Positions 2,846 to 32,135 of a DNA stretch of 64,000 bases are shown in pieces. How positions within the stretch are numbered: position 1 is the first letter of the stretch; each line of letters opens with the position of its first letter. Under the pieces are notes generated by a model. It was given only the letters and a program-made list of their open reading frames with translations. It was not told where the DNA came from and ran no database searches. The stretch is from Anadara kagoshimensis (Eukaryota; Mollusca; Bivalvia; Arcoida; Arcidae). The translations under genes and the position numbers were made by a program. The DNA lies in assembly GCA_021292105.1 (NCBI GenBank), contig CM037872.1:11930791-11994790 (forward strand). The letters run 5' to 3'.

Positions 2846-2920
2846 TTTAAAATGTAGATTTTATTCAAATTCTTAGATAGTTGGTCCAATTGTAAAATTC
2901 TTTTATCCCTTTTCTTGTAG

Positions 2921-3335: not shown

Positions 3336-3602
3336 AGTTCATTTTGAAACTATGTAGTCCTTATTAATTTAAAATTATGCGAAACGAATTGATTATTTTA
3401 ATACATTTATAATTAGAGACATACAGAATAAAATTAGTTTCTATCCAACATGTAAAGTAGAACTTAGTTTTTCTTAGCAACACAATTTTTAAAAGTTCAT
3501 TTTGACATTATGTAGTGCTTATTAAATCAAAAGTATGTTGAAGGGTCATTTATAATTGTGTATATATATACACATAATTCACGGCTAAAGTAACAGGCAA
3601 CC

Positions 3603-3627
3603 ACTGTGGTAAATCACTTGGTACAGT
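3603..3627 (+). mobile_element. 5' piece of a tRNA-derived SINE, split by the LTR array
   Basis: CCACTGTGGTAAATCACTTG GTACAGT corresponds to the head of the SINE family in this window (CCACTGCAGTAGCTCAGTTG GTAGAGT, read from the minus-strand copy at 41500-41833). The rest of this SINE resumes at 23983 after the array. The last four bases (CAGT) and the first four after the array (GAGT) fit an imperfect 4-bp target duplication. Confidence 0.75.
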
Positions 3628-4053
3628 TGTAACAATATAACCAAATCGTTGATTGTGTAAACTGCTACTTTTATTCTAGATGTAAAACTATAAAGAGGTG
3701 TACAATATACTTTACTGATGATACAGAGTGGCTCTCCAACTCTCTCTCTCCAGCTAATGGGTAATCCCTATTAGTCTTGTCCAGAGGGTAGTCCCTATCT
3801 GACTCTCACATTCCAATACACCTCATATATATACCGAACATGTGCTGTATTAATTTTCTTTGGTCTTTGAAATTTGATAAGCTGGCCAAATTTGGTTTCA
3901 GCTTACCAGATCATCATTTCTCATTATCAGTACATGATGTGTTTATATAACTTCCCGGGATTGATTATAACATGTAAAGATAAGTAGAATTTAATGTCCC
4001 TACTATCTAAATAACCAAAATTCCAAAGCCATGTTTTCCCTAATATTGTTACA
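3628..4053 (-). repeat. LTR 1 (left outer end of array)
   Basis: It begins TGTAACAATATAACC and ends ATATTGTTACA, so it has 11-bp terminal inverted repeats with TG/CA ends (plus-strand reading). The left edge is the true genomic boundary: SINE sequence lies to its left. Confidence 0.85.
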
Positions 4054-5431
4054 CACGTGTCTTTCTTATTTGAAATATAAAATTGATTAATTTTAGATTT
4101 TTATTCCGAAAATTCCAAAGCCATATTTTCCTAAAAATAGTTTTACAACACATGTTCGTATATTCATATTTTTATATATATATCTCTGGGCGTAATACAT
4201 AAACCATGATGTGAAAGAAGCATTTTGTCCAAACCATTTGAATATATTGGACAATCTTACTTTAAAATAATTAAACTGAACTTTTTAAAATAAATAATTA
4301 CTTAAAAAAAACCATTAAAAAAAACCCACCAAAAAAAAACTATTTCAAACATAGAATCGATAGTTTGACAAAATCCAGAATTTAAAAAAAAAATATATAT
4401 ATATCATTTATACGTATGGAGTTAAAGTACTTTAAACTTGAAGTAAGGATTCTTGCATACCATAAATATTGACAAAATCAATAAAAATATTTCCAAAACA
4501 AAGTTTTTGTTAATTTTAAACACTGCCAAAACTATATCAAAAATACATTTTCAAAGGAAATTGAAGAAATTATCATTTTGTATGTTAAGAAGATAAAATG
4601 TAATTACAAATTTGACCAACAAAAATGACAGAATACTTAACGAAGAATATTTTTCCAAAAAAAAAACATAATATTTTAAATGTTCCTTTTGATATGAAAG
4701 AGCTCATTTGATCTATACCTTTCTGCAATTTCATTAACTGTTTTAACGAATCCATTTTGTAAGACCTCCCGTATATTGTATTCATTGTCACTTTTTCAGA
4801 AGGTTTTATTTTGCTTCTCTGAAATTGTTTTTTTGAATTCGTCCAAATGTTCCTTACAAAGTCATATATTTAGATCCATTCAGGTAGAAGTAGTTCAATA
4901 CTGATTTTTCAAGTGCTTCTTCTGAAATGTCGTAGTTATCATTGTTATGGTGTAGTTCCAATCTAGGGTTGTTTTCACAAATGCTAAGGGTTTCTCTGAA
5001 ATTTTCCAAATGGTTTTGGTTTTGCAATTTCACTTGTATTTAAAGCGTTTACAGTCTGACTGCTGTTAATTATATTGGATTTGTCCTTCAAAATTTCAAG
5101 TTCTTTCATTACTCTTTGGAATTTATCCTCCATGTTGGAAAGTTTAAATTTGAGTTCTTCCACTGTTTTGGTAAGATATTCCTGCTCCTTTCTTATGAGA
5201 TAGTTTGACAGTCTTCTCGAATCCCTCAATTTTTGTGATGGCGATTTTGTTTTCTTTTGGTCACAGCTTTTACCAAATGCCGTGTATGGCCACAGTTGAA
5301 ACATTTCCAAATAAACATCTTGCAAAAAACATTGGCTCGTGATCGTCTAGAAAACAAATGTTGTGCAATCCGTGGTAACAGAATGGCTCATCCTGGTCAC
5401 GGCACCAAATCAACGATTGTTAAAGTCTCTG
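4054..5431 (-). mobile_element. Internal region 1, with about 490-bp deletion
   Basis: Only 1378 bp, against about 1.86 kb elsewhere. At about 4171-4185 the sequence jumps from the segment before ACTACGAATAAG straight to CTCTGGGCGTAATAC; the other units have roughly 490 bp between these points. The gag-like ORF and primer site side is retained. Confidence 0.85.
4704..5318 (-). pseudogene. gag-like zinc-knuckle ORF, unit 1 (frameshifted)
   Basis: Copy of the ORF described at 22830-23444. Single-base indels break it into pieces, including a readable stretch at 4984-5325 that passes out of the knuckle frame (the CCHC residues are lost in this frame) and continues through the coiled coil to the NTSEIAKPK segment. 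It is either a decayed copy or affected by consensus errors. Confidence 0.75.
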
Positions 5432-5853
5432 TGTAACAATATAACCAAATCGTTGATTGTGTAAAATGCTACTTTTATTCTAGATGTAAAACTATAAAGA
5501 GGTGTACAATATACTTTACTGATGATACAGAGTGGCTCTCCAACTCTCTCTCCACTAATGGGTAATCCCTATTAGTCTTGTCCAGAGGGTAGTCTCTATC
5601 TGACTCTCACATTCCAATACACCTCATATATATCCGACATGTGCTGTATTAATTTTCTTTGGTCTTTGAAATTTGATAAGCTGGCCAAATTTGGTTTCAG
5701 CTTACCAGATCATCATTTCTCATTATCAGTACATGATGTGTTTATATAACTTCCCAGGATTGATTATAACATGTAAAGATAAGTAGAATTTAATGTCCCT
5801 ACTATCTAAATAACCAAAAATTTCCAAGCCATGTTTTCCCTAATATTGTTACA
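5432..5853 (-). repeat. LTR 2
   Basis: Same ends and internal order as LTR 10; 422 bp with a few short indels. Confidence 0.85.
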
Positions 5854-7684
5854 CACGTGTTCTTTCTTATTTGGAATATAAAATTGATTAATTTTAGATT
5901 TTATTCCGAAAATTCCAAAGCCATATTTTCCTAAAAATAGTTTTCAACACATGTTCGTATATTCATATTTTTAAACTACGAATAAGTATAATAAAAATTA
6001 TACAAACAAGTATATAAAATACTACAAATACCCAAAAAAGGAAATATACGCAAGAATATATAGGAAATATGAAAAAGTAAAATTGTACACATTTGATAAA
6101 TTGTAGTGACAAACTCAGAAGTAGTATAAACCTACACAATAACGGGTAATCTGGTAGACAGACATAATACACCCTGTTTACGTGTTTACATACTTCGCTC
6201 TACAAAAAATACACTGCTTTGCCAGTGGACGTTAAACGCGTCATACACTGGATGTATTTTCACATCAAACTCTTAAAACTTGTGTACACATATTAAATCA
6301 AACATATATCGCGATAAACCATTGCAAAATGAGGTGCATTACTACACAGATATTAATTCAAAATTAAACCAACATTTAATGAATAGGAAAAAATACTATT
6401 AAAAAAACACATCCTATGTTGTTCACCGTTTACTAGTAACCAAGTAGCTGCCATCTCTGGGACGTAATACATAAACCATGATGTGAAAGACATTTTGTCC
6501 AAACCATTTGAATATATTGACAATCTTACTTTAAAATAATTAAACTGAACTTTTTAAAATAAATAATTACTTAAAAAAAACCATTAAAAAAACCCACCAA
6601 AAAAAACTATTTCAACATAGAATCGTTAGTTTGACAAATCCAGAATTTAAAAAAAAAATATATATATCATTTATACGTATGGAGTTAAAGTACTTTAAAC
6701 TTGAAGTAAGGATATCTTGCATACCATAAATATTGACAAAAGTCAAATAAAATATTTCCAAAACAAAGTTTTTGTTAATCTTAACACTGCCAAAACTATA
6801 TCAAAAATACATTTTCAAAGGAAATTGAAGAAATTATCATTTTATGTTAAAGATAAAAATGTAATTACAATTTGACCAACAAAATGACAGAATACTTCAG
6901 AAGAATATTTTTCCAAAAGAAAAAAACATAATATTTAAATGTTCCTTTTTATATGAAAGAGCTCATTTTGATCTATACCTTTCTGCAATTTCATTAACTG
7001 TTTTAACGAATCCATTTTGTAAGACCTTCCCGTATATTGTATTCATTGTCACTTTTTCAGAAGGTTTTATTTTGCTTCTCTGAAATTGTTTTTGAATTCG
7101 TCCAAAATGTCCTCAAAAGTCATATATTTAGATCCATTCAGGTAGAAGTAGTTCAATACTGATTTTTCAAGTGCTTCTTCTGAATGTCGTAGTTATCATT
7201 GTTATGGTGTAGTTCCATCTAGGGTTGTTTTCACAATGCTAAGGGTTTCTCTGAAATTTTCCAAATGTTTTGGTTTTGCAATTTCACTTGTATTTAAAGC
7301 GTTTACAGTCTGACTGCTGTTAATTATATTGGATTTGTCCTTCAAAATTTCAAGTTCTTTCATTACTCTTTGGAATTTATCTCCATGTTGGAAAGTTTAA
7401 ATTTGAGTTCTTCCACTGTTTTGGTAAGATATTCCTGCTCCTTTCTTATGAGATAGTTTGACAGTCTTCTCGAATCCCTCAATTTTTGTGATGGCGATTT
7501 TGTTTTCTTTTGGTCACAGCTTTTACCAAATGCGTGTATGGCCACAGTTGAAACATTTCCAAATAAACACTCTGCAAACAATTGGCTCGTGATCGTCTAG
7601 AAAACAAATGTTGTGCAATCCGTGGTAACAGAATGGCTCATCCTGGTCACGGCCACAAACAAATCACGATTGTTAAAGTCTCTG
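5854..7684 (-). mobile_element. Internal region 2
   Basis: 1831 bp, some 30 bp shorter than the clean units because of many scattered 1-2 base losses, often in A/T runs. Confidence 0.85.
6963..7569 (-). pseudogene. gag-like ORF, unit 2 (frameshifted)
   Basis: Frame broken by several short deletions. The start-codon position reads CAC instead of CAT on the plus strand, so the ATG is lost as well. A fragment from SCDQKK to SNMEI is readable at 7363-7581. Confidence 0.75.
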
Positions 7685-8100
7685 TGTAACATATAACCAA
7701 ATCGTTGAATTGTGTAAAATGCTACTTTTATTCTGATGTAAAACTATAAAGAGTGTACAATATACTTTTACTGATGATACAGAGTGGCTCTCCACTCCTC
7801 TCCCAGCTAATGGGTAATCCCTATTAGTCTTGTCCAGAGGGTAGTCCTATCTGACTCTCACATTCCATACACCTCATATATATACCGAACATGTGCTGTA
7901 TTAATTTTCTTTGGTCTTTGAAATTTGATAAGCTGGCCAATTTTGTTTCAGCTTACCAGACATCATTTCTCATTATCAGTACATGATGTTTTTTTTACTT
8001 CCCAGGATTGATTATAACATGTAAAGATAAGTAGAATTTATGTCCCTACTATCTAAATAACCAAAAATTCCAAAGCCATGTTTTCCCTAATATTGTTACA
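7685..8100 (-). repeat. LTR 3
   Basis: 416 bp; the most indel-affected LTR of the array, with ends preserved. Confidence 0.85.
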
Positions 8101-9930
8101 CACGTGTCTTTCTATTGAAATATAAAATTGATTAATTTTAGATTTTATTCCGAAATTCCAAAAGCCATATTTTCCTAAAAATAGTTTTTACAACACTGTT
8201 CGTATATTCATATTTTTAAACTACGAATAAGTATAAATAAAAAGATTATACAAACAAGTATATAAAATACTACAAATACCAAAAAGGAAATATAACGCAA
8301 GAATATATAGGAAATATGAAAAAGTAAAATTGTACATTTGATATTGTAGTGACAAACTCAGAAGTAGTATAAAACCTACACAATAACGGGTAATCTGGTA
8401 GACAGACATAATACACCCTGTTTACGTGTTTACATACTTCGCTCTAAAAAAATACACTGCTTTGCCAGTGGACGTTAAACGCGTCATCACCTTGGATGTA
8501 TTTTCACATCAAACTCTTAAAAACTTGTGTACACATTTAAATCAAAACTATATCGCGATAACCATTGCAAAATGAGGTGCATTACTACACAGATATTAAT
8601 TCAAAATTAAACCAACATTTAATGAATAGGAAAAAATACTATTTAAAAAAACACAAATCCATTAATGTTGTTCACCGTTTACTAGTAACCAGTAGCTGCC
8701 TCTCTGGGACGTAATACATAAACCATGATGTGAAAGAAGCATTTTGTCCAAACCATTTGAATATATTGACAATCTTACTTTAAAATAATTAAACTGACTT
8801 TTAAAATAAATAATTACTTAAAAAAAACCATTAAAAAACCCACCAAAAAAAACTATTTCAAACATAGAATCGTTAGTTTGACAAATCCAGAATTTAAAAA
8901 AAAATATATATATCATTTATACGTATGGTTTAAAGTACTTTAAACTTGAAGTAGGATATCTTGCATACCAAAATATTGACAAAAAGTCAATAAAAATATT
9001 TCCAAAAACAAAGTTTTTTGTAATCTTAACAACTGCCAACTAATCCAAAAATACATTTTCAAAGAAATTGAAGAATTATCATCTTTTGTATGTTAAGAAG
9101 ATAAAAATGTAATTACAAATTTGACCACAAAATGACAGAATACTTACAGAAGAATATTTTTTCCAAGAAAAAAACTAAATATTTTAAATGTTCCTTTTGA
9201 TATGAAAAGAGCTCATTTTGATCTATACCTTTCTGCAATTTCATTAACTGTTTTAACGAATCCATTTTGTAAGACCTTCCCGTATATTGTATTCATTGTC
9301 ACTTTTTCAGAAGGTTTTATTTTGCTTCTCTGAAATTGTTTTTTGAATTCGTCCAAAATGTCCTCAAAGTCATATATTTAGATCCATTCAGGTAGAAGTA
9401 TTCATCTGATTTTTCAAGTGCTTCTTCTGAAATGTCGTAGTTTCATTGTTTGGTGTAGTTCCATCTAGGTTGTTTTTTCACAATGCTAAGGGTTTTCTCT
9501 GAAATTTTTCCAATGTTTTGGTTTTGCAATTTCACTTGTATTTAAGCGTTTACAGTCTGACTGCTGTTAATTATATTGGATTTGTCCTTCAAAATTTCAA
9601 GTTCTTTCATTATCTTTGGAATTTATCCTCCATGTTGGAAGTTTAAATTTGAGTTCTTCCACTGTTTTGGTAAGATATTCCTGCTCCTTTCTTATCGATA
9701 GTTTTACAGTCTTCTCGATCCCTCAATTTTTGTGATGGCGATTTTGTTTTCTTTTGGTCACAGCTTTTTACCAAATGCCGTGTATGGCCACAGTTTTGAA
9801 ACTTTCCCAAATAAACATCTTGCAAACAAATTGGCTCGTGATCGTCTAGAAAACAAATGTTGTGCAATCCGTGGTAACAGAATGGCTCATCCTGGTCACG
9901 GCACCAAATCAACGATTGTTAAAGTCTCTG
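8101..9930 (-). mobile_element. Internal region 3
   Basis: 1830 bp with numerous single-base indels relative to internal regions 8 and 9. Confidence 0.85.
9213..9818 (-). pseudogene. gag-like ORF, unit 3 (frameshifted)
   Basis: Broken by many indels. One combination of indels joins the upstream Cys/His-rich frame (WCRDQDEPFCYHGLHNIC) to the knuckle frame as NCGHTRHLVKSC, at 9643-9912, but then loses frame in the coiled coil. Confidence 0.75.
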
Positions 9931-10349
9931 TGTAACAATATAACCAAATCGTTGATTGTGTAAAATGCTACTTTTATTCTAGATGTAAAACTATAAAGAT
10001 GTGTACAATATACTTTACTGATGATACAGAGTGGCTCTCCAACTCTCTCTCCAGCTAATGGTAATCCCTATTAGTCTTGTCCAGAGGGTATCTCTATCTG
10101 ACTCTCACATTCCAATACACCTCATATATAGACCGAACATGTGCTGTATTAATTTTTCTTTGGTCTTTGAATTTGATAACTGGCCAATTTGGTTTCAGCT
10201 TACCAGATCATCATTTCTCATTATCAGTACATATGTGTTTTATATACTTCCCAGGATTGATTTATACATGTAAAGATAAGTAGAATTTAATGTCCCTACT
10301 ATCTAAATAACCAAAAATTCCAAGCCATGTTTTCCCTAATATTGTTACA
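9931..10349 (-). repeat. LTR 4
   Basis: 419 bp with short indels; TG/CA ends intact. Confidence 0.85.
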
Positions 10350-12192
10350 CACGTGTCTTTCTTATTTGAATATAAAATTGATTAATTTTAGATTTTATTC
10401 CGAAAATTCCAAAGCCATATTTTTCCTAAAATAGTTTTACAACACATGTTCGTTATATTCATATTTTTAAACTACGAATAAGTATAAATAAAAGATTATC
10501 AACAAGTATATAAAATACTACAAATCCAAAAAAAGGAAAATATACGCAGAATATATAGGAAATATGAAAAAGTAAAATTGTACACATTTGATAAATTGTA
10601 GTGACAAACTCAGAAGTAGTATACCTACACAATAACGGGTAATCTGTAGACAGACATAATACACCCTGTTTACGTGTTACTACCTCGCTCTACAAAAAAT
10701 ACACTGCTTTGCCCAGTGGACGTTAAACGCGTCATACACTGGATGTATTTTCACATCAAACTCTTAAAACTTGTGTACACATATTAAATCAAAACATATA
10801 TCGCGATAACCATTGCAAAATGAGGTGCATTACTACACAGATATTAATTCAAAATTAACCAACATTTAATGAATAGGAAAAAATACTATTTAAAAAAACA
10901 AAAATCCATTAATGTTGTTCACCGTTTACTAGTAACCAAGTAGCTGCCATCTCTGGGACGTAATACATAACCATGATGTGAAAGAAGCATTTTGTCCAAA
11001 CCATTTGAATATATTGGACAATCTTACTTTAAAATAATTAAACTGAACTTTTTAAAATAAATAATTACTTAAAAAAACCATTAAAAAAACCCCAAAAAAA
11101 ACTATTTCAAACATAGAATCGTTAGTTTGACAAAATCCAGAATTTAAAAAAAAATATATATAATCATTTATACGTATGGAGTTAAAGTACTTTAAACTTG
11201 AAGTAAGGATATCTTGCATACCATAAATATTGACAAAAAGTCAAATAAAAATATTTCCAAAAACAAAGTTTTTTGTTAATCTTAACACTGCCAAAACTAT
11301 ATCAAAAATACATTTTCAAAGGAAATTGAAGAAATTATCATTTTGTATGTTAAGAAGATAAAAGTAATTACAAATTTGACCAACAAAATGACAGAATACT
11401 TACAGAAGAATATTTTTCCAAAAGAAAAAAACATAATATTTTAAATGTTCCTTTTGATATAAAGAGCTCATTTTGATCTATACCTTTCTGCAATTTCATT
11501 AACTGTTTTAACGATCCATTTTGTAAGACCTTCCCGTATATTGTATTCATTGTCACTTTTTCAGAAGGTTTTATTTTGCTTCTCTGAAATTGTTTTTTTG
11601 AATTCGTCCAAAATGTCCTCAAAAGTCATATATTTAGATCCATTCAGGTAGAAGTAGTTCAATACTGATTTTTCAAGTGCTTCTTCTGAAATGTCGTAGT
11701 TATCATTGTTATGGTGTAGTTCCAATCTAGGGTTGTTTTCACAAATGCTAAGGGTTTCTCTGAAATTTTCCAATGTTTTGGTTTTGCAATTTCACTTGTA
11801 TTTAAAGCGTTTACAGTCTGACTGCTGTTAATTATATTGGATTTGTCCTTCAAAATTTCAAGTTCTTTCATTACTCTTTGGAATTTATCCTCCATGTTGG
11901 AAAGTTTAAATTTGAGTTCTTCCACTGTTTTGGTAAGATATTCCTGCTCCTTTCTTATGAGATAGTTTGACAGTCTTCTCGAATCCCTCAATTTTTGTGA
12001 TGGCGATTTTGTTTTCTTTTGGTCACAGCTTTTTACCAAATGCCGTGTATGGCCACAGTTGAAACATTTCCAAATAAACATCTTGCAAACAAATTGGCTC
12101 GTGATCGTCTAGAAAACAAATGTTGTGCAATCCGTGGTAACAGAATGGCTCATCCTGGTCACGGCACCAAATCACGATTGTTAAAGTCTCTG
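10350..12192 (-). mobile_element. Internal region 4
   Basis: 1843 bp. Primer site and gag-like ORF are in the same order as in the other units. Confidence 0.85.
11468..12081 (-). pseudogene. gag-like ORF, unit 4 (one or few frameshifts)
   Basis: From the ATG at 12079-12081 the frame is open through the knuckle and coiled coil to about residue 105 (NTSEIAKPKHWK), where a one-base loss changes frame; it ends at 11659 after 140 codons. The normal frame resumes in a second piece (11561-11773). Confidence 0.78.
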
Positions 12193-12613
12193 TGTAACAA
12201 TAACCAAATCGTTGATTGTGTAAAATGCTACTTTTATTCTAGATGTAAAACTATAAAGAGGTGTACAATATACTTTACTGATGATACAGAGTGGCTCTCC
12301 AACTCTCTCTCCAGCTAATGGGTAATCCTATTAGTCTTGTCCAGAGGGTAGTCTCTATCTGACTCTCACATTCCAATACACCTCATATATATACCGAACA
12401 TGTGCTGTATTAATTTTCTTTGGTCTTTGAAATTTGATAAGCTGGCCAAATTTGGTTTCAGCTTACCAGATCATCATTTCTCATTATCAGTACATGATGT
12501 GTTTATATAACTTCCCAGGATTGATTATAACATGTAAAGATAAGTAGAATTTAATGTCCCTACTATCTAAATAACCAAAATTCCAAAGCCATGTTTTCCC
12601 TAATATTGTTACA
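12193..12613 (-). repeat. LTR 5
   Basis: 421 bp; TG/CA ends intact. Confidence 0.85.
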
Positions 12614-14464
12614 CACGTGTCTTTCTTATTTGAAATATAAATGATTAATTTTAGATTTTTATTTCGAAAATTCCAAAGCCATATTTTTCCTAAAAAATAG
12701 TTTTTACAACACATGTTCGTATATTCATATTTTTAAACTACGAATAAGTATAAATAAAAAGATTATACAAACAAGTATATAAAATACTACAAATACCAAA
12801 AAAGGAAAATATACGCAAGAATATATAGGAAATATGAAAAAGTAAAATTGTACACATTTGATAAATTGTAGTGACAACTCAGAGTAGTATAAACCTACAC
12901 AATAACGGGTAATCTGGTAGACAGACATAATACACCCTGTTTACGTGTTACATACTTCGCTCTACAAAAAATACACTGCTTGGCCAGTGACGTTAAACGC
13001 GTCATACACTGGATGTATTTTTCACATCAAACTCTTAAAAACCTTGTGTACACATATTAAATCAAAACATATATCGCGATAACCATTGCAAAATGAGGTG
13101 CATTACTACACAGATATTAATTCAAAATTAAACCAACATTTAATGAATAGGAAAAAAATACTATTTAAAAAAACAACAAATCCATTAATGTTGTTCACCG
13201 TTTACTAGTAACCAAGTAGCTGCCATCTCTGGGACGTAATACATAAACCATGATGTGAAAGAAAGCATTTTGTCCAAACCTTTGAATATATGGACAATCT
13301 TACTTTAAAATAATTAAACTGAACTTTTAAATAAATAATTACTTAAAAAAACCATTAAAAAAAACCCACCAAAAAAAACTATTTCAAACATAGAATCGTT
13401 AGTTTGACAAAATCCAGAATTTAAAAAAAAAATATATATCATTTATACTATGGAGTTAAAGTACTTTAACTTGAAGTAAGGATATCTTGCATACCATAAA
13501 TATTGACAAAAAGTCAAATAAAAATATTTCCAAAAAACAAAGTTTTTGTTAATCTTAACACTGCCAAAACTATATCAAAAATACATTTTCAAAGGAAATT
13601 GAAGAAATTATCATTTTGTATGTTAAGAAGATAAAAATGTAATTACAAATTTGACCAACAAAAATGACAGAATACTTACAGAAGAATATTTTTCCAAAAG
13701 AAAAAAACATAATATTTTAAATGTTCCTTTTGATATGAAGAAGCTCATTTGATCTATACCTTTCTGCAATTTCATTAACTGTTTTAACGAATCCATTTTG
13801 TAAGACCTTCCCGTATATTGTATTCATTGTCACTTTTTCAGAAGGTTTTATTTTGCTTCTCTGAAATTGTTTTTTGAATTCGTCCAAAATGTCCTTAAAA
13901 GTCATATATTTAGATCCATTCAGGTAGAAGTAGTTCAATACTGATTTTTCAAGTGCTTCTTCTGAAATGTCGTAGTTATCATTGTTATGGTGTAGTTCCA
14001 ATCTAGGGTTGTTTTCACAAATGCTAAGGGTTTCTCTGAAATTTTTCAAATGTTTTGGTTTTGCAATTTCACTTGTATTTAAAGCGTTTACAGTCTGACT
14101 GCTGTTAATTATATTGGATTTGTCCTTCAAAATTTCAAGTTCTTTCATACTCTTTGGAATTATCCTCCATGTTGGAAAGTTTAAATTGAGTTCTTCCACT
14201 GTTTGGTAAGATATTCCTGCTCCTTTCTTATGAGATAGTTGACAGTCCTTCTCGAATCCCTCAATTTTTGTGATGGCGATTTTGTTTTCTTTTGGTCACA
14301 GCTTTTTACCAAATGCCGTGTATGGCCACAGTTGAAACATTTCCAAATAAACATCTTGCAAAACAAATTGGCTCGTGATCGTCTAGAAAACAAATGTTGT
14401 GCAATCCGTGGTAACAGAATGGCTCATCCTGGTCACGGCACCAAATCAACGATTGTTAAGTCTC
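12614..14464 (-). mobile_element. Internal region 5
   Basis: 1851 bp; fewer indels than units 2-3. Confidence 0.85.
13745..14354 (-). pseudogene. gag-like ORF, unit 5 (frameshifted)
   Basis: Two overlapping frames cover the ORF: knuckle and early coil in 14181-14393, and the remainder in 13717-14199. A one-base loss near the stop also extends the C-terminus to SNELLHIKRNI. Confidence 0.75.
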
Positions 14465-14887
14465 TGTAACAATATAACCAAATCGTTGATTGTGTAAAAT
14501 GCTACTTTTATTCTAGATGTAAAACTATAAGAGGTGTACAATATACTTTACTGATGATACAGAGTGGCTCTCCAACTCTCTCTCCAGCTAATGGGTAATC
14601 CCTATTAGTCTTGTCCAGAGGGTAGTCTCTATCTGACTCTCACATTCCAATACACCTCATATATATACCGAACATGTGCTGTATTAATTTTCTTTGGTCT
14701 TTGAAATTTGATAAGCTGGCCAAATTTGGTTTCAGCTTACCAGATCATCATTTCTCATATCAGTACATGATGTGTTTATATAACTTCCCAGGATTGATTA
14801 TAACATGTAAAGATAAGTAGAATTTAATGTCCCTACTATCTAAATAACCAAAAATTCCAAAGCCATGTTTTCCCTAATATTGTTACA
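14465..14887 (-). repeat. LTR 6
   Basis: 423 bp; the spacer before it has lost two bases (TCTCTGTAAC). Confidence 0.85.
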
Positions 14888-16711
14888 CACGTGTCTTTCT
14901 TATTTGAAATATAAAATTGATTAATTAAGATTTTATTCCGAAAATTCCAAAGCCATATTTTCCTAAAATATTTTTACAACACATGTTCGTATATTCATAT
15001 TTTTAAACTACGAATAAGTATAAATAAAAAGATTATACAAACAAGTATATAAAATACTACAAATACCAAAAAAAGGAAAATATACGCAAGAATATATAGG
15101 AAATATGAAAAAGTAAAATTGTACACATTTGATAAATTGTAGTGACAAACTCAGAAGTAGTATAAACCTACACAATAACGGGTAATCTGGTAGACAGACA
15201 TAATACACCTGTTTACGTGTTACATACTTCGCTCTACAAAAAAATACACTGCTTTGCCAGTGGACGTTAAACGCGTCATACACTGGATGTATTTTCACAT
15301 CAACTCTTAAAAACTTGTGTACACATATTAAAATCAAAACATATATCGCGATAACCATTGCAAAATGAGGTGCATTACTACACAGATATTAATTCAAAAT
15401 TAAACCAACATTTAATGAATAGAAAAAATACTATTTAAAAAAAACAACAAATCCATTAATGTTGTTCACCGTTTACTAGTAACCAAGTAGCTGCCATCTC
15501 TGGGACGTAATACATAAACCATTATGTACAAGAAGCATTTTGTCCAAACCATTTGAATATATTGGACAATCTTACTTTAAAATAATTAACTGAACTTTTT
15601 AAAATAAATAATACTTAAAAAAACCATTAAAAAACCCCCAAAAAAAACTATTTCAAACATAGAATCGTTAGTTTGACAAAATCCAGAATTTTAAAAATAT
15701 ATATATCATTTATACGTATGGAGTTAAAGTACTTTAACTTGAAGTAAGGATATCTTGCATACCATAAAATTGACAAAAGTCAAATAAAAATATTTCCAAA
15801 AACAGTTTTTTGGTTAATCTTAACACTGCCAAACTATATCAAAAATACTTTTCAAAGGAATTGAAGAAATTATCATTTTGTATGTTTAAGAATAAAATGT
15901 AATTACAAATTTGACCACAAAATGACAAATACTTACAGAAGAATATTTTTCCAAAAAGAAAAAAAACATAATATTTTAAATGTTCCTTTTGATATGAAAA
16001 GCTCATTTTGATCTATACCTTTCTGCAATTTCATTACTGTTTTTAACGAATCCATTTTGTAAGACCTTCCCGATATTGTATTCATTGTCACTTTTTCAGA
16101 AGGTTTATTTTGCTTCTCTGAAATTGTTTTTTGAATTCGTCCAAATGTCCTCAAAGTCATATATTTAGATCCATCAGGTAGAAGTAGTTCAATACTGATT
16201 TTTCAATGCTTCTTCTGAATGTCGTAGTTATCATTGTTATGGTGTAGTTCAATCTAGGGTTGTTTCACAATGCTAAGGTTTCTCTGAAATTTTCCAATGT
16301 TTTGGTTTTGCAATTTCACTTGTATTTAAAGCGTTTACAGTCTGACTGCTGTTAATTATATTGGATTTGTCCTTCAAAATTTCAAGTTCTTCATTACTCT
16401 TTGGAATTTATCCTCCATGTTGGAAAGTTTTAAATTTGAGTTTCTTCCACTGTTTTGGTAAGATATTCCTGCTCCTTTCTTATGAGATAGTTTGACAGTC
16501 TTCTCGAATCCCTCAATTTTTGTGATGGCGATTTTGTTTTCTTTTGGTCACAGCTTTTTACAAATGCCGTGTATGGCCACAGTTGAAATTTCCAAATAAC
16601 ATCTTGCAAAACAATTGGCTCGTGATCGTCTAGAAAACAATGTTGTGCAATCCGTGGTAACAGATGGCTCATCCTGGTCCGGCACCAAATCAACGATTGT
16701 TAAAGTCTCTG
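14888..16711 (-). mobile_element. Internal region 6
   Basis: 1824 bp. A one-base loss here opens a 116-codon hydrophobic minus-strand frame (15008-15358) that is only 66 codons and without ATG in the clean units; I do not treat it as a gene. Confidence 0.85.
16003..16602 (-). pseudogene. gag-like ORF, unit 6 (frameshifted)
   Basis: Multiple short deletions, including one within the knuckle segment, disrupt the frame. Confidence 0.75.
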
Positions 16712-17132
16712 TGTAACAATATACCAAATCGTTGATTGTGTAAAATGCTACTTTTATCTAGATGTAAACTATAAAGAGGTGTACAATATACTTTACTGAT
16801 GATACAGAGTGGCTCTCCACTCTCTCTCCAGCTAATGGGTAATCCCTATTAGTCTTGTCCAGAGGGTAGTCTCTATCTGACTCTCACATTCCAATACACC
16901 TCATATATATACCGAACATGTGCTGTATTAATTTTCTTTGGTCTTTGAAATTTGATAAGCTGGCCAAATTTGGTTTCAGCTTACCAGATCATCATTTCTC
17001 ATTATCAGTACATGATGTGTTTATATAACTTCCCAGGATTGATTATAACATGTAAAGATAAGTAGAATTTAATGTCCCTACTATCTAAATAACCAAAAAA
17101 TTCCAAGCCATGTTTTCCCTAATATTGTTACA
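16712..17132 (-). repeat. LTR 7
   Basis: 421 bp; TG/CA ends intact. Confidence 0.85.
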
Positions 17133-18981
17133 CACGTGTCTTTCTTATTTGAATATAAAATTGATTAATTTTAGATTTTATTCCGAAAATTCAAAGCCAT
17201 ATTTTCCTAAAAAGTTTTACAACACATGTTCGTATATTCATATTTTTAAACTACGAATAAGTATAAATAAAAAGATTATACAAACAAGTATATAAAATAC
17301 TACAAATACCAAAAAAGGAAAATATACGCAAGAATATATAGGAAATGAAAAAGTAAAATTGTACACATTTGATAAATTGTAGTGACAAACTCAGAAGTAG
17401 TATAAACCTACACAATAACGGGTAATCTGGTAGACAGACATAATACACCCTGTTTACGTGTTACATACTTCGCTCTACAAAAATACACTGCTTTGCCAGT
17501 GGACGTTAAACGCGTCATACACTGGATGTATTTTCACATCAAACTCTTAAAAACTTGTGTACACATATTAAATCAACATATATCGCGATAACCATTGCAA
17601 AATGAGGTGCATTACTACACAGATATTAATTCAAAATTAACCAACATTTAATGAATAGGAAAAATACTATTTAAAAAAACAACAAATCCATTAATGTTGT
17701 TCACCGTTTACTAGTAACCAAGTAGCTGCCATCTCTGGGACGTAATACATAAACCATGATGTGAAAGAAGCATTTTGTCCAAACCATTTTGAATATATTG
17801 GACAACCTTACTTTAAAATAATTAAACTGAACTTTTTAAAATAAATAATTACTTAAAAAAACCATTAAAAAAACCCACCAAAAAAAAACTATTTCAAACA
17901 TAGAATCGTTAGTTTGACAAAATCCAGAATTGTAAAAAAAAAATATATATATTTATACGTATGGAGTTAAAGTACTTTAAACTTGAAGTAAGGATATCTT
18001 GCATACCATAAATATTGACAAAAAGTCAAATAAAAATATTTCCAAAAACAAAGTTTTTGTTAATCTTAACACTGCCAAAACTATATCAAAAATACATTTT
18101 CAAAGGAAATTGAAGAAATTATCATTTTGTATGTTAAGAAGATAAAAATGTAATTACAAATTTGACCAACAAAAATGACAGAATACTTACAGAAGAATAT
18201 TTTTCCAAAAGAAAAAAACATAATATTTTAAATGTTCCTTTTGATATGAAAGAGCTCATTTTGATCTATACCTTTCTGCAATTTCATTAACTGTTTTAAA
18301 ATCCATTTTGTAAGACCTTCCCGTATATTGTATTCATTGTCACTTTTTCAGAAGGTTTTATTTTGCTTCTCTGAAATTGTTTTTTGAATTCGTCCAAAAT
18401 GTCCTCAAAAGTCATATATTTAGATCCATTCAGGTAGAAGTAGTTCAATACTGATTTTTAAGTGCTTCTTCTGAAATGTCGTAGTTATCATTGTTATGGT
18501 GTAGTTCCAATCTAGGGTTGTTTTCACAAATGCTAAGGGTTTCTCTGAAATTTTCCAAATGTTTTGGTTTTGCAATTTCACTTGTATTTAAAGCGTTTAC
18601 AGTCTGACTGCTGTTAATTATATTGGATTTGTCCTTCAAAATTTCAAGTTCTTTCATTACTCTTTGGAATTTATCCTCCATGTTGGAAAGTTTAAATTTG
18701 AGTTCTTCCACTGTTTTGGTAAGATATTCCTGCTCCTTTCTTATGAGATAGTTTGACAGTCTTCTCGAATCCCTCAATTTTTGTGATGGCGATTTTGTTT
18801 TCTTTTGGTCACAGCTTTTTACCAAATGCCGTGTATGGCCACAGTTGAAAACATTTCCAAATAAACATCTTGCAAAACAAATTGGCTCGTGATCGTCTAG
18901 AAAACAAATGTTGTGCAATCCGTGGTAACAGAATGGCTCATCCTGGTCACGGCACCAAATCAACGATTGTTAAAGTCTCTG
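17133..18981 (-). mobile_element. Internal region 7
   Basis: 1849 bp and much cleaner than units 1-6. It shares the variants CAACCTTAC and AATTGTAAA with internal region 9, not with region 8. Confidence 0.85.
18256..18868 (-). pseudogene. gag-like ORF, unit 7 (+1 and downstream frameshifts)
   Basis: An extra A just before the knuckle (TTGAAAACATTTCC against TTGAAACATTTCC elsewhere) fuses the upstream Cys/His-rich frame to the knuckle frame, giving an open frame at 18445-18963 with C-x-F-N-C style spacing altered (NVFNCGHTRHLVKSC). A one-base loss after SEEAL then ends it early (SEEALKNQY). The rest of the C-terminus is present out of frame. Confidence 0.75.
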
Positions 18982-19406
18982 TGTAACAATATAACCAAAT
19001 CGTTGATTGTGTAAAATGCTACTTTTATTCTAGATGTAAAACTATAAAGAGGTGTACAATATACTTTACTGATGATACAGAGTGGCTCTCCAACTCTCTC
19101 TCCAGCTAATGGGTAATCCCTATTAGTCTTGTCCAGAGGGTAGTCTCTATCTGACTCTCACATTCCAATACACCTCATATATATACCGAACATGTGCTGT
19201 ATTAATTTTCTTTGGTCTTTGAAATTTGATAAGCTGGCCAAATTTGGTTTCAGCTTACCAGATCATCATTTCTCATTATCAGTACATGATGTGTTTATAT
19301 AACTTCCCAGGATTGATTATAACATGTAAAGATAAGTAGAATTTAATGTCCCTACTATCTAAATAACCAAAAATTCCAAAGCCATGTTTTCCCTAATATT
19401 GTTACA
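18982..19406 (-). repeat. LTR 8
   Basis: 425 bp, clean copy. Confidence 0.88.
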
Positions 19407-21268
19407 CACGTGTCTTTCTTATTTGAAATATAAAATTGATTAATTTTAGATTTTATTCCGAAAATTCCAAAGCCATATTTTCCTAAAAATAGTTTTACAA
19501 CACATGTTCGTATATTCATATTTTTAAACTACGAATAAGTATAAATAAAAAGATTATACAAACAAGTATATAAAATACTACAAATACCAAAAAAAGGAAA
19601 ATATACGCAAGAATATATAGGAAATATGAAAAAGTAAAATTGTACACATTTGATAAATTGTAGTGACAAACTCAGAAGTAGTATAAACCTACACAATAAC
19701 GGGTAATCTGGTAGACAGACATAATACACCCTGTTTACGTGTTACATACTTCGCTCTACAAAAAATACACTGCTTTGCCAGTGGACGTTAAACGCGTCAT
19801 ACACTGGATGTATTTTCACATCAAACTCTTAAAAACTTGTGTACACATATTAAATCAAAACATATATCGCGATAACCATTGCAAAATGAGGTGCATTACT
19901 ACACAGATATTAATTCAAAATTAAACCAACATTTAATGAATAGGAAAAAATACTATTTAAAAAAAACAACAAATCCATTAATGTTGTTCACCGTTTACTA
20001 GTAACCAAGTAGCTGCCATCTCTGGGACGTAATACATAAACCATGATGTGAAAGAAGCATTTTGTCCAAACCATTTGAATATATTGGACAATCTTACTTT
20101 AAAATAATTAAACTGAACTTTTTAAAATAAATAATTACTTAAAAAAACCATTAAAAAAACCCACCAAAAAAAACTATTTCAAACATAGAATCGTTAGTTT
20201 GACAAAATCCAGAATGTTAAAAAAAAATATATATATCATTTATACGTATGGAGTTAAAGTACTTTAAACTTGAAGTAAGGATATCTTGCATACCATAAAT
20301 ATTGACAAAAAGTCAAATAAAAATATTTCCAAAAACAAAGTTTTTGTTAATCTTAACACTGCCAAAACTATATCAAAAATACATTTTCAAAGGAAATTGA
20401 AGAAATTATCATTTTGTATGTTAAGAAGATAAAAATGTAATTACAAATTTGACCAACAAAAATGACAGAATACTTACAGAAGAATATTTTTCCAAAGAAA
20501 AAACATAATATTTTAAATGTTCCTTTTGATATGAAAGAGCTCATTTTGATCTATACCTTTCTGCAATTTCATTAACTGTTTTAACGAATCCATTTTGTAA
20601 GACCTTCCCGTATATTGTATTCATTGTCACTTTTTCAGAAGGTTTTATTTTGCTTCTCTGAAATTGTTTTTTGAATTCGTCCAAAATGTCCTCAAAAGTC
20701 ATATATTTAGATCCATTCAGGTAGAAGTAGTTCAATACTGATTTTTCAAGTGCTTCTTCTGAAATGTCGTAGTTATCATTGTTATGGTGTAGTTCCAATC
20801 TAGGGTTGTTTTCACAAATGCTAAGGGTTTCTCTGAAATTTTCCAAATGTTTTGGTTTTGCAATTTCACTTGTATTTAAAGCGTTTACAGTCTGACTGCT
20901 GTTAATTATATTGGATTTGTCCTTCAAAATTTCAAGTTCTTTCATTACTCTTTGGAATTTATCCTCCATGTTGGAAAGTTTAAATTTGAGTTCTTCCACT
21001 GTTTTGGTAAGATATTCCTGCTCCTTTCTTATGAGATAGTTTGACAGTCTTCTCGAATCCCTCAATTTTTGTGATGGCGATTTTGTTTTCTTTTGGTCAC
21101 AGCTTTTTACCAAATGCCGTGTATGGCCACAGTTGAAACATTTCCAAATAAACATCTTGCAAAACAAATTGGCTCGTGATCGTCTAGAAAACAAATGTTG
21201 TGCAATCCGTGGTAACAGAATGGCTCATCCTGGTCACGGCACCAAATCAACGATTGTTAAAGTCTCTG
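19407..21268 (-). mobile_element. Internal region 8 (intact gag-like ORF)
   Basis: 1862 bp. It differs from region 9 by only a handful of substitutions and short A/T-run length changes. On the minus strand, downstream of the ORF, about 1.1 kb is AT-rich with no frame that has an ATG and recognisable features. A degenerate echo of the LTR edge (ATTCCAAAGCCATATTTTCC) lies about 60 bp inside. Confidence 0.88.
20541..21155 (-). CDS. gag-like zinc-knuckle ORF, unit 8 (intact, 204 codons)
   Basis: Identical in protein to the unit 9 copy; see 22830-23444 for the domain description. The start chosen is the first ATG (21153-21155); 13 more codons are open upstream but contain no ATG. The stop is TGA at 20541-20543. 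Confidence 0.75.
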   Translation of the reverse strand: MFIWKCFNCGHTRHLVKSCDQKKTKSPSQKLRDSRRLSNYLIRKEQEYLTKTVEELKFKLSNMEDKFQRVMKELEILKDKSNIINSSQTVNALNTSEIAKPKHLENFRETLSICENNPRLELHHNNDNYDISEEALEKSVLNYFYLNGSKYMTFEDILDEFKKQFQRSKIKPSEKVTMNTIYGKVLQNGFVKTVNEIAERYRSK

Positions 21269-21692
21269 TGTAACAATATAACCAAATCGTTGATTGTGTA
21301 AAATGCTACTTTTATTCTAGATGTAAAACTATAAAGAGGTGTACAATATACTTTACTGATGATACAGAGTGGCTCTCCAACTCTCTCTCCTCTAATGGGT
21401 AATCCCTATTAGTCTTGTCCAGAGGGTAGTCTCTATCTGACTCTCACATTCCAATACACCTCATATATATACCGAACATGTGCTGTATTAATTTTCTTTG
21501 GTCTTTGAAATTTGATAAGCTGGCCAAATTTGGTTTCAGCTTACCAGATCATCATTTCTCATTATCAGTACATGATGTGTTTATATAACTTCCCAGGATT
21601 GATTATAACATGTAAAGATAAGTAGAATTTAATGTCCCTACTATCTAAATAACCAAAAATTCCAAAGCCATGTTTTCCCTAATATTGTTACA
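21269..21692 (-). repeat. LTR 9
   Basis: 424 bp, clean. It has TCTCTCCTCTAATGG where most LTRs have TCTCTCCAGCTAATGG. Confidence 0.88.
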
Positions 21693-21698
21693 CACGTG

Positions 21699-21710
21699 TC
21701 TTTCTTATTT
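21699..21710 (-). other. Candidate polypurine tract of unit 9
   Basis: The minus strand reads AAATAAGAAAGA, ending a few bases from the LTR edge; CACGTG lies between it and the TG of the LTR. This is the position expected for the plus-strand primer of an LTR element, although the tract is short and not flush with the LTR. It is conserved in nearly all units. Confidence 0.45.
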
Positions 21711-22829
21711 GAAATATAAAATTGATTAATTTTAGATTTTATTCCGAAAATTCCAAAGCCATATTTTCCTAAAAATAGTTTTACAACACATGTTCGTATA
21801 TTTCATATTTTTAAACTACGAATAAGTATAAATAAAAAGATTATACAAACAAGTATATAAAATACTACAAATACCAAAAAAAGGAAAATATACGCAAGAA
21901 TATATAGGAAATATGAAAAAGTAAAATTGTACACATTTGATAAATTGTAGTGACAAACTCAGAAGTAGTATAAACCTACACAATAACGGGTAATCTGGTA
22001 GACAGACATAATACACCCTGTTTACGTGTTACATACTTCGCTCTACAAAAAATACACTGCTTTGCCAGTGGACGTTAAACGCGTCATACACTGGATGTAT
22101 TTTCACATCAAACTCTTAAAAACTTGTGTACACATATTAAATCAAAACATATATCGCGATAACCATTGCAAAATGAGGTGCATTACTACACAGATATTAA
22201 TTCAAAATTAAACCAACATTTAATGAATAGGAAAAAATACTATTTAAAAAAAACAACAAATCCATTAATGTTGTTCACCGTTTACTAGTAACCAAGTAGC
22301 TGCCATCTCTGGGACGTAATACATAAACCATGATGTGAAAGAAGCATTTTGTCCAAACCATTTGAATATATTGGACAACCTTACTTTAAAATAATTAAAC
22401 TGAACTTTTTAAAATAAATAATTACTTAAAAAAACCATTAAAAAAACCCACCAAAAAAAAACTATTTCAAACATAGAATCGTTAGTTTGACAAAATCCAG
22501 AATTGTAAAAAAAAAATATATATAATTTATACGTATGGAGTTAAAGTACTTTAAACTTGAAGTAAGGATATCTTGCATACCATAAATATTGACAAAAAGT
22601 CAAATAAAAATATTTCCAAAAACAAAGTTTTTGTTAATCTTAACACTGCCAAAACTATATCAAAAATACATTTTCAAAGGAAATTGAAGAAATTATCATT
22701 TTGTATGTTAAGAAGATAAAAATGTAATTACAAATTTGACCAACAAAAATGACAGAATACTTACAGAAGAATATTTTTCCAAAAGAAAAAAACATAATAT
22801 TTTAAATGTTCCTTTTGATATGAAAGAGC

Positions 22830-23444
22830 TCATTTTGATCTATACCTTTCTGCAATTTCATTAACTGTTTTAACGAATCCATTTTGTAAGACCTTCCCGT
22901 ATATTGTATTCATTGTCACTTTTTCAGAAGGTTTTATTTTGCTTCTCTGAAATTGTTTTTTGAATTCGTCCAAAATGTCCTCAAAAGTCATATATTTAGA
23001 TCCATTCAGGTAGAAGTAGTTCAATACTGATTTTTCAAGTGCTTCTTCTGAAATGTCGTAGTTATCATTGTTATGGTGTAGTTCCAATCTAGGGTTGTTT
23101 TCACAAATGCTAAGGGTTTCTCTGAAATTTTCCAAATGTTTTGGTTTTGCAATTTCACTTGTATTTAAAGCGTTTACAGTCTGACTGCTGTTAATTATAT
23201 TGGATTTGTCCTTCAAAATTTCAAGTTCTTTCATTACTCTTTGGAATTTATCCTCCATGTTGGAAAGTTTAAATTTGAGTTCTTCCACTGTTTTGGTAAG
23301 ATATTCCTGCTCCTTTCTTATGAGATAGTTTGACAGTCTTCTCGAATCCCTCAATTTTTGTGATGGCGATTTTGTTTTCTTTTGGTCACAGCTTTTTACC
23401 AAATGCCGTGTATGGCCACAGTTGAAACATTTCCAAATAAACAT
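22830..23444 (-). CDS. gag-like zinc-knuckle ORF, unit 9 (intact, 204 codons)
   Basis: The only substantial ORF of the element. Near the N-terminus is a perfect CCHC knuckle, CFNCGHTRHLVKSC (C6, C9, H14, C19; C-x2-C-x4-H-x4-C), the nucleic-acid-binding motif of retroelement Gag proteins. A Lys/Arg-rich stretch follows (QKKTKSPSQK). Residues about 35-90 look like a coiled coil (EQEYLTKTVEELKFKLSNME). An Asn/Ser linker leads to a C-terminal region (about 130-204) with FEDILDEFKK and NTIYGKVLQNGFVKTV, of a helical and possibly winged-helix look; I do not recognise a family. Unlike ordinary Gag the knuckle is N-terminal, and no capsid region is seen, so it may be a remnant or a captured gene. It lies about 110 nt after the LTR, downstream of the primer site, as gag does. 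Stop TGA at 22830-22832; the start is the first ATG. Confidence 0.75.
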   Translation of the reverse strand: MFIWKCFNCGHTRHLVKSCDQKKTKSPSQKLRDSRRLSNYLIRKEQEYLTKTVEELKFKLSNMEDKFQRVMKELEILKDKSNIINSSQTVNALNTSEIAKPKHLENFRETLSICENNPRLELHHNNDNYDISEEALEKSVLNYFYLNGSKYMTFEDILDEFKKQFQRSKIKPSEKVTMNTIYGKVLQNGFVKTVNEIAERYRSK

Positions 23445-23515
23445 CTTGCAAAACAAATTGGCTCGTGATCGTCTAGAAAACAAATGTTGTGCAATCCGTG
23501 GTAACAGAATGGCTC

Positions 23516-23533
23516 ATCCTGGTCACGGCACCA
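23516..23533 (-). other. Primer binding site complementary to tRNA-His 3' end (unit 9)
   Basis: The minus strand reads TGGTGCCGTGACCAGGAT. Its complement ends ...CACGGCACCA, which fits the acceptor (GCCGTGA pairing) and T-arm of an invertebrate tRNA-His plus CCA. The tRNA identity is from memory of tRNA-His sequences. It lies 24 nt inside the LTR, farther than the usual 0-5 nt. The site is present in essentially every unit, with small indels in some. Confidence 0.7.
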
Positions 23534-23599
23534 AATCAACGATTGTTAAAGTCTCTGTGTAACAATATAACCAAATCGTTGATTGTGTAAAATGCTACT

Positions 23600-23605
23600 T
23601 TTATT
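23600..23605 (-). terminator. LTR poly(A) signal
   Basis: AATAAA on the minus strand (AGAATAAAAGTAGC), in the downstream part of each LTR, as expected for the R region. Confidence 0.55.
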
Positions 23606-23753
23606 CTAGATGTAAAACTATAAAGAGGTGTACAATATACTTTACTGATGATACAGAGTGGCTCTCCAACTCTCTCTCCAGCTAATGGGTAATCCCTATT
23701 AGTCTTGTCCAGAGGGTAGTCTCTATCTGACTCTCACATTCCAATACACCTCA

Positions 23754-23761
23754 TATATATA
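23754..23761 (-). promoter_or_regulatory. TATA box within the LTR
   Basis: TATATATA on the minus strand, preserved in most LTR copies, upstream of the LTR's AATAAA and of the ORF. It is the likely promoter element of the retrotransposon. Confidence 0.55.
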
Positions 23762-23982
23762 CCGAACATGTGCTGTATTAATTTTCTTTGGTCTTTGAAA
23801 TTTGATACGCTGGCCAAATTTGGTTTCAGCTTACCAGATCATCATTTCTCATTATCAGTACATGATGTGTTTATATAACTTCCCAGGATTGATTATAACA
23901 TGTAAAGATAAGTAGAATTTAATGTCCCTACTATCTAAATAACCAAAAATTCCAAAGCCATGTTTTCCCTAATATTGTTACA

Positions 23983-24290
23983 GAGTGCTCACGCCGTAAG
24001 TGCGAGGTCGTGAATTCGATCCCCGGCTACGTCTGACCAAAGACTTGAAAGTGGGTCGTGACTGTTCTTTCGCAAAGCACTCTCCATTACGAAATGAAAG
24101 TCACGGTTCTTTTGGATGGGAACTTAAAATAAACGAGGTCCCGTGTAACGATGGGCTTTGCACGCTAAAGAACCTTGTTGTTTAATGCCATTAGAGCAAC
24201 GCACAAGCAAAATTGCTGCACATTCGCTTAAAGCTGGCGACGTCTCAATATAATTAAAATATTATTTCTGGGATGTTAAATTCCATTACT
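23983..24290 (+). mobile_element. 3' part of the SINE interrupted by the LTR array
   Basis: It continues the SINE broken at 3627: GAGTGCTCACGCCGTAAG, a B-box-like GAATTCGATCCCC, then the body shared with the other copies (GACTTGAAAGTGGGTCGTGA, TTCTTTCGCAAAGCAC, AAATAAACGAGGTCCCGTG, AGCAACGCAC, AAAGCTGGCGACGTCTC) to the tail GGGATGTTAAATTCCAT. Its A-box half is 20 kb away. Confidence 0.8.
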
Positions 24291-31959: not shown

Positions 31960-32135
31960 ACATACCACTCGATGCCCAAATCACAAACCCAAAAGCCAAG
32001 TTTAAACTTTGGATACTGACGAAATAGGTTTTACAGGTGACAATTCACAAGACAAATAAGATTGGGTTCTCCAGAAGGGTAAGAATCCACTGTTTAATTA
32101 TATAGACCCAACTCAGGTAAACACCTGTGTTGTTT
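31960..32135 (-). mobile_element. PLE 3' UTR fragment in C1q intron (orthologous to 2690-2845)
   Basis: GATGCCCAAATCACAAACCC, AAAAGCCAAGTTTAAACTTT, TTCTCCAGAAGGGTAAGAAT. Same place and orientation as in genes 1 and 3. Confidence 0.65.

Follow-up and report, generated by a model that had tools for sequence, protein, structure and literature searches.

Tandem arrays of retrotransposons built around long terminal repeats (LTRs) have been published for several systems, so that the starting premise of the initial annotation of the DNA analysed here, namely that LTR elements normally sit singly, overlooked TA-TRIMs, Cassandra and biv-TRIM. The biv-TRIM elements (Satovic et al. 2019, PMC6934838), named after the terminal-repeat retrotransposons in miniature (TRIMs), form arrays of the type TDRx_I(x-1), up to TDR58_I57 in Ruditapes philippinarum, and also occur as solo repeats and single elements, with repeats of 202-218 bp, an inner domain of 77-80 bp and no clear primer site. 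Plant TA-TRIMs (Gao et al. 2016, PMC4717578) are described there as common, take forms such as L3I2 and L5I4 with one flanking target duplication, and had their structures confirmed via polymerase chain reaction and sequencing. LTR-internal-LTR-internal arrays, with unequal crossing over as the proposed cause, are also reported for Cassandra (PMC7215508) and maize Wukong (PMC4528315), and satellites derived from tandem repeats inside plant Ogre elements (PMC7004042) represent a different route. Here we analyse a 64,000-nucleotide stretch of the Anadara kagoshimensis genome (the window; assembly GCA_021292105.1, contig CM037872.1), in which positions 3628-23982 hold nine head-to-tail units of a small LTR retrotransposon, probably grown from one insertion.

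Layout of the array and its insertion site

From 3628 to 23982 the window alternates strictly between ten LTRs of 416-426 bp and nine internal regions, all in a single orientation and with every gap filled, and has the LnIn-1 form, in which n LTRs and n-1 internal regions lie within one outer target duplication (here with one mismatch). The element measures 2.27 kb; internal regions 2-9 measure 1824-1865 bp and internal region 1 measures 1378 bp. The sense of the element is the minus strand of the window, and the components are the following, with the bases that are discussed below:

3628..4053, minus strand, LTR 1 (outer left; the element's 3' LTR), with the ancestral bases C at 3794 and G at 3957, the derived base A at 3880 and a private C at 3662
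4054..5431, minus strand, internal region 1, with a private deletion of approximately 490 bp near 4175-4181
5432..5853, minus strand, LTR 2
5854..7684, minus strand, internal region 2
7685..8100, minus strand, LTR 3
8101..9930, minus strand, internal region 3
9931..10349, minus strand, LTR 4
10350..12192, minus strand, internal region 4
12193..12613, minus strand, LTR 5
12614..14464, minus strand, internal region 5
14465..14887, minus strand, LTR 6
14888..16711, minus strand, internal region 6
16712..17132, minus strand, LTR 7
17133..18981, minus strand, internal region 7, with a derived C in common with unit 9 and not with unit 8
18982..19406, minus strand, LTR 8
19407..21268, minus strand, internal region 8
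21269..21692, minus strand, LTR 9
21693..23557, minus strand, internal region 9
23558..23982, minus strand, LTR 10 (outer right; the element's 5' LTR), with the ancestral base C at 23808 and the derived bases T at 23722 and A at 23885

Self-BLAST of the window gave a continuous off-diagonal from 4182 onward at each shift of 1-8 units, and 3628-4174 was broken into pieces because unit 1 carries its deletion at 4175-4181. Tandem Repeats Finder did not report the array, the longest period that it reported being 500. The coordinates of LTRs and gaps, together with the one off-diagonal per unit shift, bear out the arrangement given in the initial annotation, a head-to-tail array in one orientation without foreign DNA.

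The outer ends of the array abut the two parts of a short interspersed nuclear element (SINE), which carries its own target duplication:

3589..3597, plus strand, left copy of the SINE's own target duplication, AGTAACAGG (8/9 match with AGTAAAAGG)
3600..3627, plus strand, 5' part of the interrupted SINE (transfer RNA (tRNA) type by eye)
3624..3627, plus strand, left copy of the element's 4-bp target duplication, CAGT (one mismatch to GAGT)
23983..23986, plus strand, right copy of the element's 4-bp target duplication, GAGT
23983..24304, plus strand, remainder of the interrupted SINE
24305..24313, plus strand, right copy of the SINE's own target duplication, AGTAAAAGG

The 28 bases to the left align in register with the 5' ends of two SINE copies, at 22/28 (copy near 41497-41811) and 20/28 (copy near 39644-39974), and 28-mers reaching 22 matches number two among the 63,821 of the window's plus strand, the site itself included. 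When one 4-bp copy is removed, the joined flanks align gap-free at the junction with both of these SINE copies, which lie elsewhere in the window; the 9-bp duplication of the SINE itself sits outside the array and brackets everything. The left flank has a single occurrence in the assembly, besides a 74% match to a neighbouring paralogue. The flanks had been described as the halves of one SINE, an interpretation with which the joined alignment, the 5' matches and the outer duplication agree, and one insertion of the element into one SINE is well supported.

We searched the window's own assembly (1.115 Gb, 36 contigs) for further copies. The LTR search, in which 40 of 72 candidates were scored so that its counts are lower bounds, returned at least 43 matches, ten of which are the array and the other 33 lie at 25 loci, each fetched with about 2-5 kb of flank per side. 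One LTR or part of an LTR is present at 19 of these loci; L013 has an LTR pair with a 69-bp remnant, L016 is a rearranged cluster, and four loci among the matches listed (L009, L014, L015 and L017) are LTR-internal-LTR elements, L015 being a 98% copy of L014 with the flanks included. None of the 25 loci has more than two LTRs head to tail. At L009, a same-family LTR in opposite orientation was observed approximately 0.8 kb from the full element (3822-4231 vs 5052-7750). The internal-region search (1248-bp query, all candidates scored) gave 15 matches, namely nine in the array, four in the elements just named at 83-92% identity, and two short pieces; the array holds nine of the 13 full internal copies found. 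Target duplications were tested for 22 insertions from the 25 loci, with L016, L029 and L031 omitted as rearranged or truncated and the right end of L022 and L026 shifted two bases beyond the changed LTR end. An exact 4-bp duplication was found in 14 of the 22 (12 if the locus copies L015 and L026 are excluded), one has an exact duplication of 5 bp, and seven have none that is exact, three of these with one mismatch in 4.

Six LTR columns hold one base in all called array LTRs that is absent from 15 close dispersed LTRs, and 27 of 1695 internal columns have a base fixed across the array that the four dispersed elements (one of which is a copy of another) lack. These 33 array-only columns make independent insertions very unlikely as the source of the units, and descent of all array units from a single founder is supported by them. 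Taken with the split SINE, the outer 4-bp duplication (one mismatch) and the mixed inner LTRs described below, they favour the earlier proposal of growth from one insertion.

Recombination record of the LTRs and growth of the array

Three LTR sites were polarised by 31 dispersed LTRs, two partial L016 pieces being omitted from the 33. At site 1 (3794 / 23722) all 31 dispersed LTRs have C, as does LTR1, LTRs 2 and 4-10 have T, and LTR3 has a gap-adjacent C that is ambiguous. At site 2 (3880 / 23808) the dispersed LTRs have C in 29 of 31 cases, T in two and A in none; LTR10 has C, LTRs 1-3 and 5-9 have A, and LTR4 has a gap. At site 3 (3957 / 23885) G is present in 29 of 31 dispersed LTRs, with A in one and a gap in one; LTR1 has G and LTRs 2-10 have A. 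The ancestral state is accordingly found in LTR1 at sites 1 and 3 and in LTR10 at site 2, with the inner LTRs derived at all three where they are readable, and LTR1 has in addition a private C at 3662. With the dispersed copies taken as the ancestor, all four allele combinations are present for sites 1-2 and for sites 2-3, the usual sign of recombination, which points to exchange between the two original LTRs. Moreover, isolated clean differences from LTR8 amount to four in 777 callable bases for the outer LTRs and one in 2444 for the remaining seven inner LTRs (Fisher p = 0.014; the test was picked after the pattern was seen), which suggests that the common ancestor of the inner LTRs is more recent than the one they have with the outer LTRs. 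Clean counts, here and below, omit columns within 6 of a gap and, for the unit and outer/inner LTR counts, also those within 6 of another mismatch.

The array probably originated by a single insertion into the SINE, ageing of the LTRs and subsequent LTR-LTR exchange up to nine units. The SINE would have inserted at the locus first, and one copy of the small non-autonomous LTR retrotransposon would then have integrated in it with a 4-bp target duplication, after which the founder's two LTRs would have aged, gaining different substitutions. Exchange of the left LTR of one chromatid or homologue with the right LTR of the other would have given LTR-internal-LTR-internal-LTR, the middle LTR being a recombinant of both originals; further rounds between the now similar inner LTRs could have led to nine units, with the outermost LTRs kept as founder relics and a short conversion patch at one site (3957). 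A single crossover leads to the expectation of inner LTRs that are of LTR10 type on the left and of LTR1 type on the right, which fits 3662, 3794 and 3880. The array, the single SINE, the 4-bp target duplication of the family, the founder alleles and the mixed inner haplotype are shown by the data, and the chromatid-level step, the number of rounds and the conversion patch are inferred. Units 7 and 9 carry a derived base that neither unit 8 nor any other unit or any of the four dispersed elements has, a hint of later exchange or conversion.

Several points weigh against this history. A simple crossover does not yield the inner allele at 3957, so that the model needs a conversion patch or a recurrent change in addition; the LTR10 allele, and hence the four-combination argument, depends on the single base 23808; the informative sites are few, three in the LTR and one between clean units; the comparison of outer and inner LTRs is post hoc with small counts; and the array's 4-bp duplication, CAGT/GAGT, has one mismatch. 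The chromatid mechanism is furthermore deduced from its products, and the count of nine units is taken from the assembly.

The main rival is that the element's own complementary DNA (cDNA), or a one-LTR circle, recombined into the resident copy once or repeatedly and added whole units at the LTR, which predicts nearly the same pattern as chromatid LTR exchange, the two not being separated by our data. The same outer flanks are expected in this case, the polarity of the inner LTRs fits at 3662, 3794 and 3880 (3' end in element sense from LTR10, U3 from LTR1), and the conserved open reading frame (ORF) described below speaks for a mobile family. However, a U3 copied whole from LTR1 predicts G at 3957, where the inner LTRs have A, the crossover likewise needing a patch there; a helper element would be required and none turned up, no dedicated search for one having been made; and more than two head-to-tail LTRs were seen at 0 of the 25 other loci, though such recombination would be possible there too. 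We regard recombination with cDNA or a circle as unlikely and prefer exchange between the LTRs of the inserted element.

Long self-alignments have approximately 96% identity, with mostly 1-bp indels behind the difference. In clean contexts, pairs of internal regions show 0-6 substitutions among 685-1780 callable bases (0-0.6%), ranging from none in 1655 for units 7 and 9 and two in 1780 for units 8 and 9 to the largest count of six for units 5 and 9 (in 1425) and units 2 and 5 (in 1072). The other differences between units are indels, mostly 1-base deletions, and mismatches beside them, unit 6 for example having 36 deletion and 5 insertion events relative to unit 9. Homopolymers of at least 3, which make up 32% of bases, contain 85 of the 152 one-base events in units 2-8. 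Few substitutions in the presence of many indels are unlike natural decay and thus argue for consensus error, which probably accounts for most of the 1-bp indels. A true unit divergence of 4% was rejected in view of the clean substitution counts. As for the recent expansion that had been deduced from low divergence, the clean substitutions support it, whereas overall identity is too noisy to do so.

Considering this noise, the unit number could itself be an assembly artefact, if noisy long reads led to the multiplication or wrong joining of what is really a single unit or a small number of units. The many 1-bp indels in the inner units, mostly deletions, resemble a poorly polished long-read consensus, and seven of the nine units show a broken ORF or yielded no start context for it. 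Yet the three LTR haplotypes are positioned as a real array predicts, the 490-bp deletion is private to unit 1, and a clean derived base tells units 7, 8 and 9 apart; since an artefact would alter the unit count more readily than produce ordered haplotypes, we consider it improbable. Least credible of all is a concatemer made before integration and inserted in a single step, which would suit a whole array inside one target duplication and nearly identical units but is disfavoured because its LTRs should be equally old, yet the inner LTRs are closer together (1/2444 vs 4/777 from LTR8) and each outer LTR retains ancestral bases that the inner LTRs lost, a concatemer of different cDNAs fitting only if the divergent LTRs chanced to be the terminal ones. 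Stepwise LTR-LTR exchange after a single insertion predicts constant outer LTRs and an inner unit number that varies between individuals.

The element and its zinc-knuckle ORF

The array LTRs have TG...CA ends, with the start TGTAACAATAT exact in 7/10 and the end ATATTGTTACA exact in 10/10. On the sense strand of LTR10, TATATAA (106), TATATAT (222) and AATAAA (378) follow each other in this order (pattern matches, not proof of use), and on the opposite strand TATA-like stretches are present and AATAAA is absent. A stretch resembling a primer-binding site was found 24 nt past the 5' LTR:

23522..23533, minus strand, primer-binding-site-like TGGTGCCGTGAC

This stretch presumably fits the 3' end of animal tRNA-His; among the dispersed copies, it is altered in three (L009, L014 and L015) and missing from L017. 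The side before the 3' LTR is weakly purine-rich where a polypurine tract is expected. An inverted repeat of 11 bp, AATCAACGATT / AATCGTTGATT, is visible by eye across the leader-LTR junction (approximately 23534-23590).

An ORF with a zinc knuckle of the pattern CX2CX4HX4C at its N-terminus is the sole ORF of at least 100 amino acids (aa) on either strand of units 8 and 9, where no long pol-like ORF is present:

20541..21155, minus strand, 204-aa zinc-knuckle ORF of unit 8 (including stop codon)
22830..23444, minus strand, 204-aa zinc-knuckle ORF of unit 9 (including stop codon)

Pfam gave no pol domain in this ORF, the profile scan covering the ORF only. The reverse transcriptase and integrase that characterise an autonomous LTR retrotransposon were thus not found, and we classify the element, from its predicted features, as a small non-autonomous LTR retrotransposon. 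Assignment to the TRIM class was ruled out, the element having 2.27 kb and a conserved ORF versus a protein-free limit of approximately 1-1.5 kb.

As assembled, units 8 and 9 have the ORF intact, five units have it ending early, and in two its start context was not found; given the probable consensus error, the breaks in the inner units may not be real. Between unit 9 and both L009 and L014, nonsynonymous divergence (dN) is 0.03 and synonymous divergence (dS) is 0.10-0.12, with ratios of 0.27 and 0.26, respectively, and dN/dS between L009 and L014 is 0.40. Nonsynonymous changes are also less frequent than changes in the non-coding 3' part (p = 0.003 and 0.001 for unit 9 vs L009 and L014). Both the low dN/dS and the rarity of nonsynonymous change indicate that purifying selection acted on the ORF during the spread of the family.

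A translated search returned, besides close copies, 18 more distant matches outside the array (E 9.8e-11 to 0.005), 11 of which lie in frames open for at least 200 aa; together they make up a broader group of zinc-knuckle ORFs, in which the N-terminus is strongly conserved. L043 (C9:63091300-63093300), for example, has 28% identity in the alignment, strongest at the N-terminus, and its ORF comes after AATAAA and a TTTGGTGGCCGCGAC stretch, as after an LTR. A single-sequence protein search gave no relative among 134 candidates, and a profile search gave one relative elsewhere, the 219-aa P0003 on a contig of at most 1742 bp, with 35% identity over nearly the whole length. Pfam assigned no domain above cut-off in the ORF family; zf-CCHC remained below it, at E 0.0053 (17.2 vs 20.8 bits) for P0003 and 0.04 at best in three of the four members. 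No capsid domain was matched by sequence or fold among the hits shown. The PDB sequence search gave weak matches to HIV nucleocapsid at the knuckle (best E 0.052) and to polyubiquitin chains, the latter treated as chance (best E 1.1e-10 when the repeats are summed over the whole chain, with no single stretch passing). The AlphaFold model, obtained with two sequences, is of low confidence (pLDDT 67.6, pTM 0.37) and has a long helix and a helical C-terminal part; Foldseek with this model gave no match at E <=0.001, the top hit, a DEK C-terminal domain at E 1.1, being a lead only. Nucleic-acid binding for packaging by another element's machinery would be the most likely role of the protein.

Some dispersed loci form pairs 0.1-1.4 Mb apart that share a solo LTR or element, have flanks alike at about 78-98% depending on the piece compared, and are either segmental duplications or haplotypes both kept in the assembly:

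C6, 24.19 and 24.29 Mb, L014 and L015
C5, 63.2 and 64.6 Mb, L026 and L022
C4, 31.44 and 31.54 Mb, L033 and L032
C19, 9.86 and 10.88 Mb, L021 and L020, inverted

Genomic neighbourhood, the satellite question and known systems

The array starts approximately 300 bp past the first of three paralogous C1q-domain exons on the plus strand (2896-3324, 32060-32623 and 37972-38427; Pfam C1q, E 7.5e-18 to 2.4e-15). Upstream of C1q exons, the frames 1067-1600 and 31010-31303 look coiled-coil-like by eye. At 50793-51182 on the minus strand, an open frame has, by eye, the look of a neuropeptide precursor, with multiple dibasic KR sites and a start that is signal-like; it has no Pfam match. Rfam at the gathering score found nothing in the window.

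Tandem repeats that originated from transposons are usually studied in arrays too old or too homogenised to show their start, so that the origin has to be deduced. At this locus a few polarised bases reveal the order of events (SINE, insertion, LTR ageing, recombination, expansion), and the array also points to a zinc-knuckle ORF family spread over the same genome. The initial annotation spoke of a satellite DNA being born, which goes too far for a single 20-kb locus of nine units with no second array among the matches scored. We tentatively suggest, as a possibility only, that the elements represent an undescribed animal group of small LTR elements, whose sole protein carries a zinc knuckle at its N-terminus together with a coiled coil and a C-terminal domain of helices, and that a locus holding founder LTRs, a recombinant and expanded units may show a transposon at its first steps towards a satellite.

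With regard to known systems, the TR-GAG elements of plants are small non-autonomous LTR elements that retain only a gag-like ORF; the present element differs from them in its N-terminal zinc knuckle, in the remainder of the protein, which has no Pfam match above cut-off, and in its animal host. Among the papers listed by literature searches, none describes this element in its title or the opening of its abstract, which is not proof of absence.

Wukong (PMC4528315) differs in being a plant TRIM, and Cassandra (PMC7215508) is a plant element without gag or pol, with a 5S domain in its LTRs. The TA-TRIMs (PMC4717578) share with the locus an LnIn-1 array within one target duplication, whereas they are plant elements, below 1.5 kb by criterion and protein-free, with at most five LTRs in the forms named. 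The biv-TRIM elements likewise alternate LTRs and internal regions, with LTRs common to adjacent units; in contrast to them, the LTR here is approximately 425 bp long, the inner region 1.85 kb, and a conserved ORF and a primer-site-like stretch are present. With up to two mismatches allowed, the biv-TRIM segment TGATCCCAAAGGAC is absent from the array and matches twice in the rest of the window, and membership in biv-TRIM was rejected on the absence of this inner segment from the array and on the different repeat lengths. Overall, the form of the array is already published, and what sets this one apart is a recombination history that is unusually well polarised.

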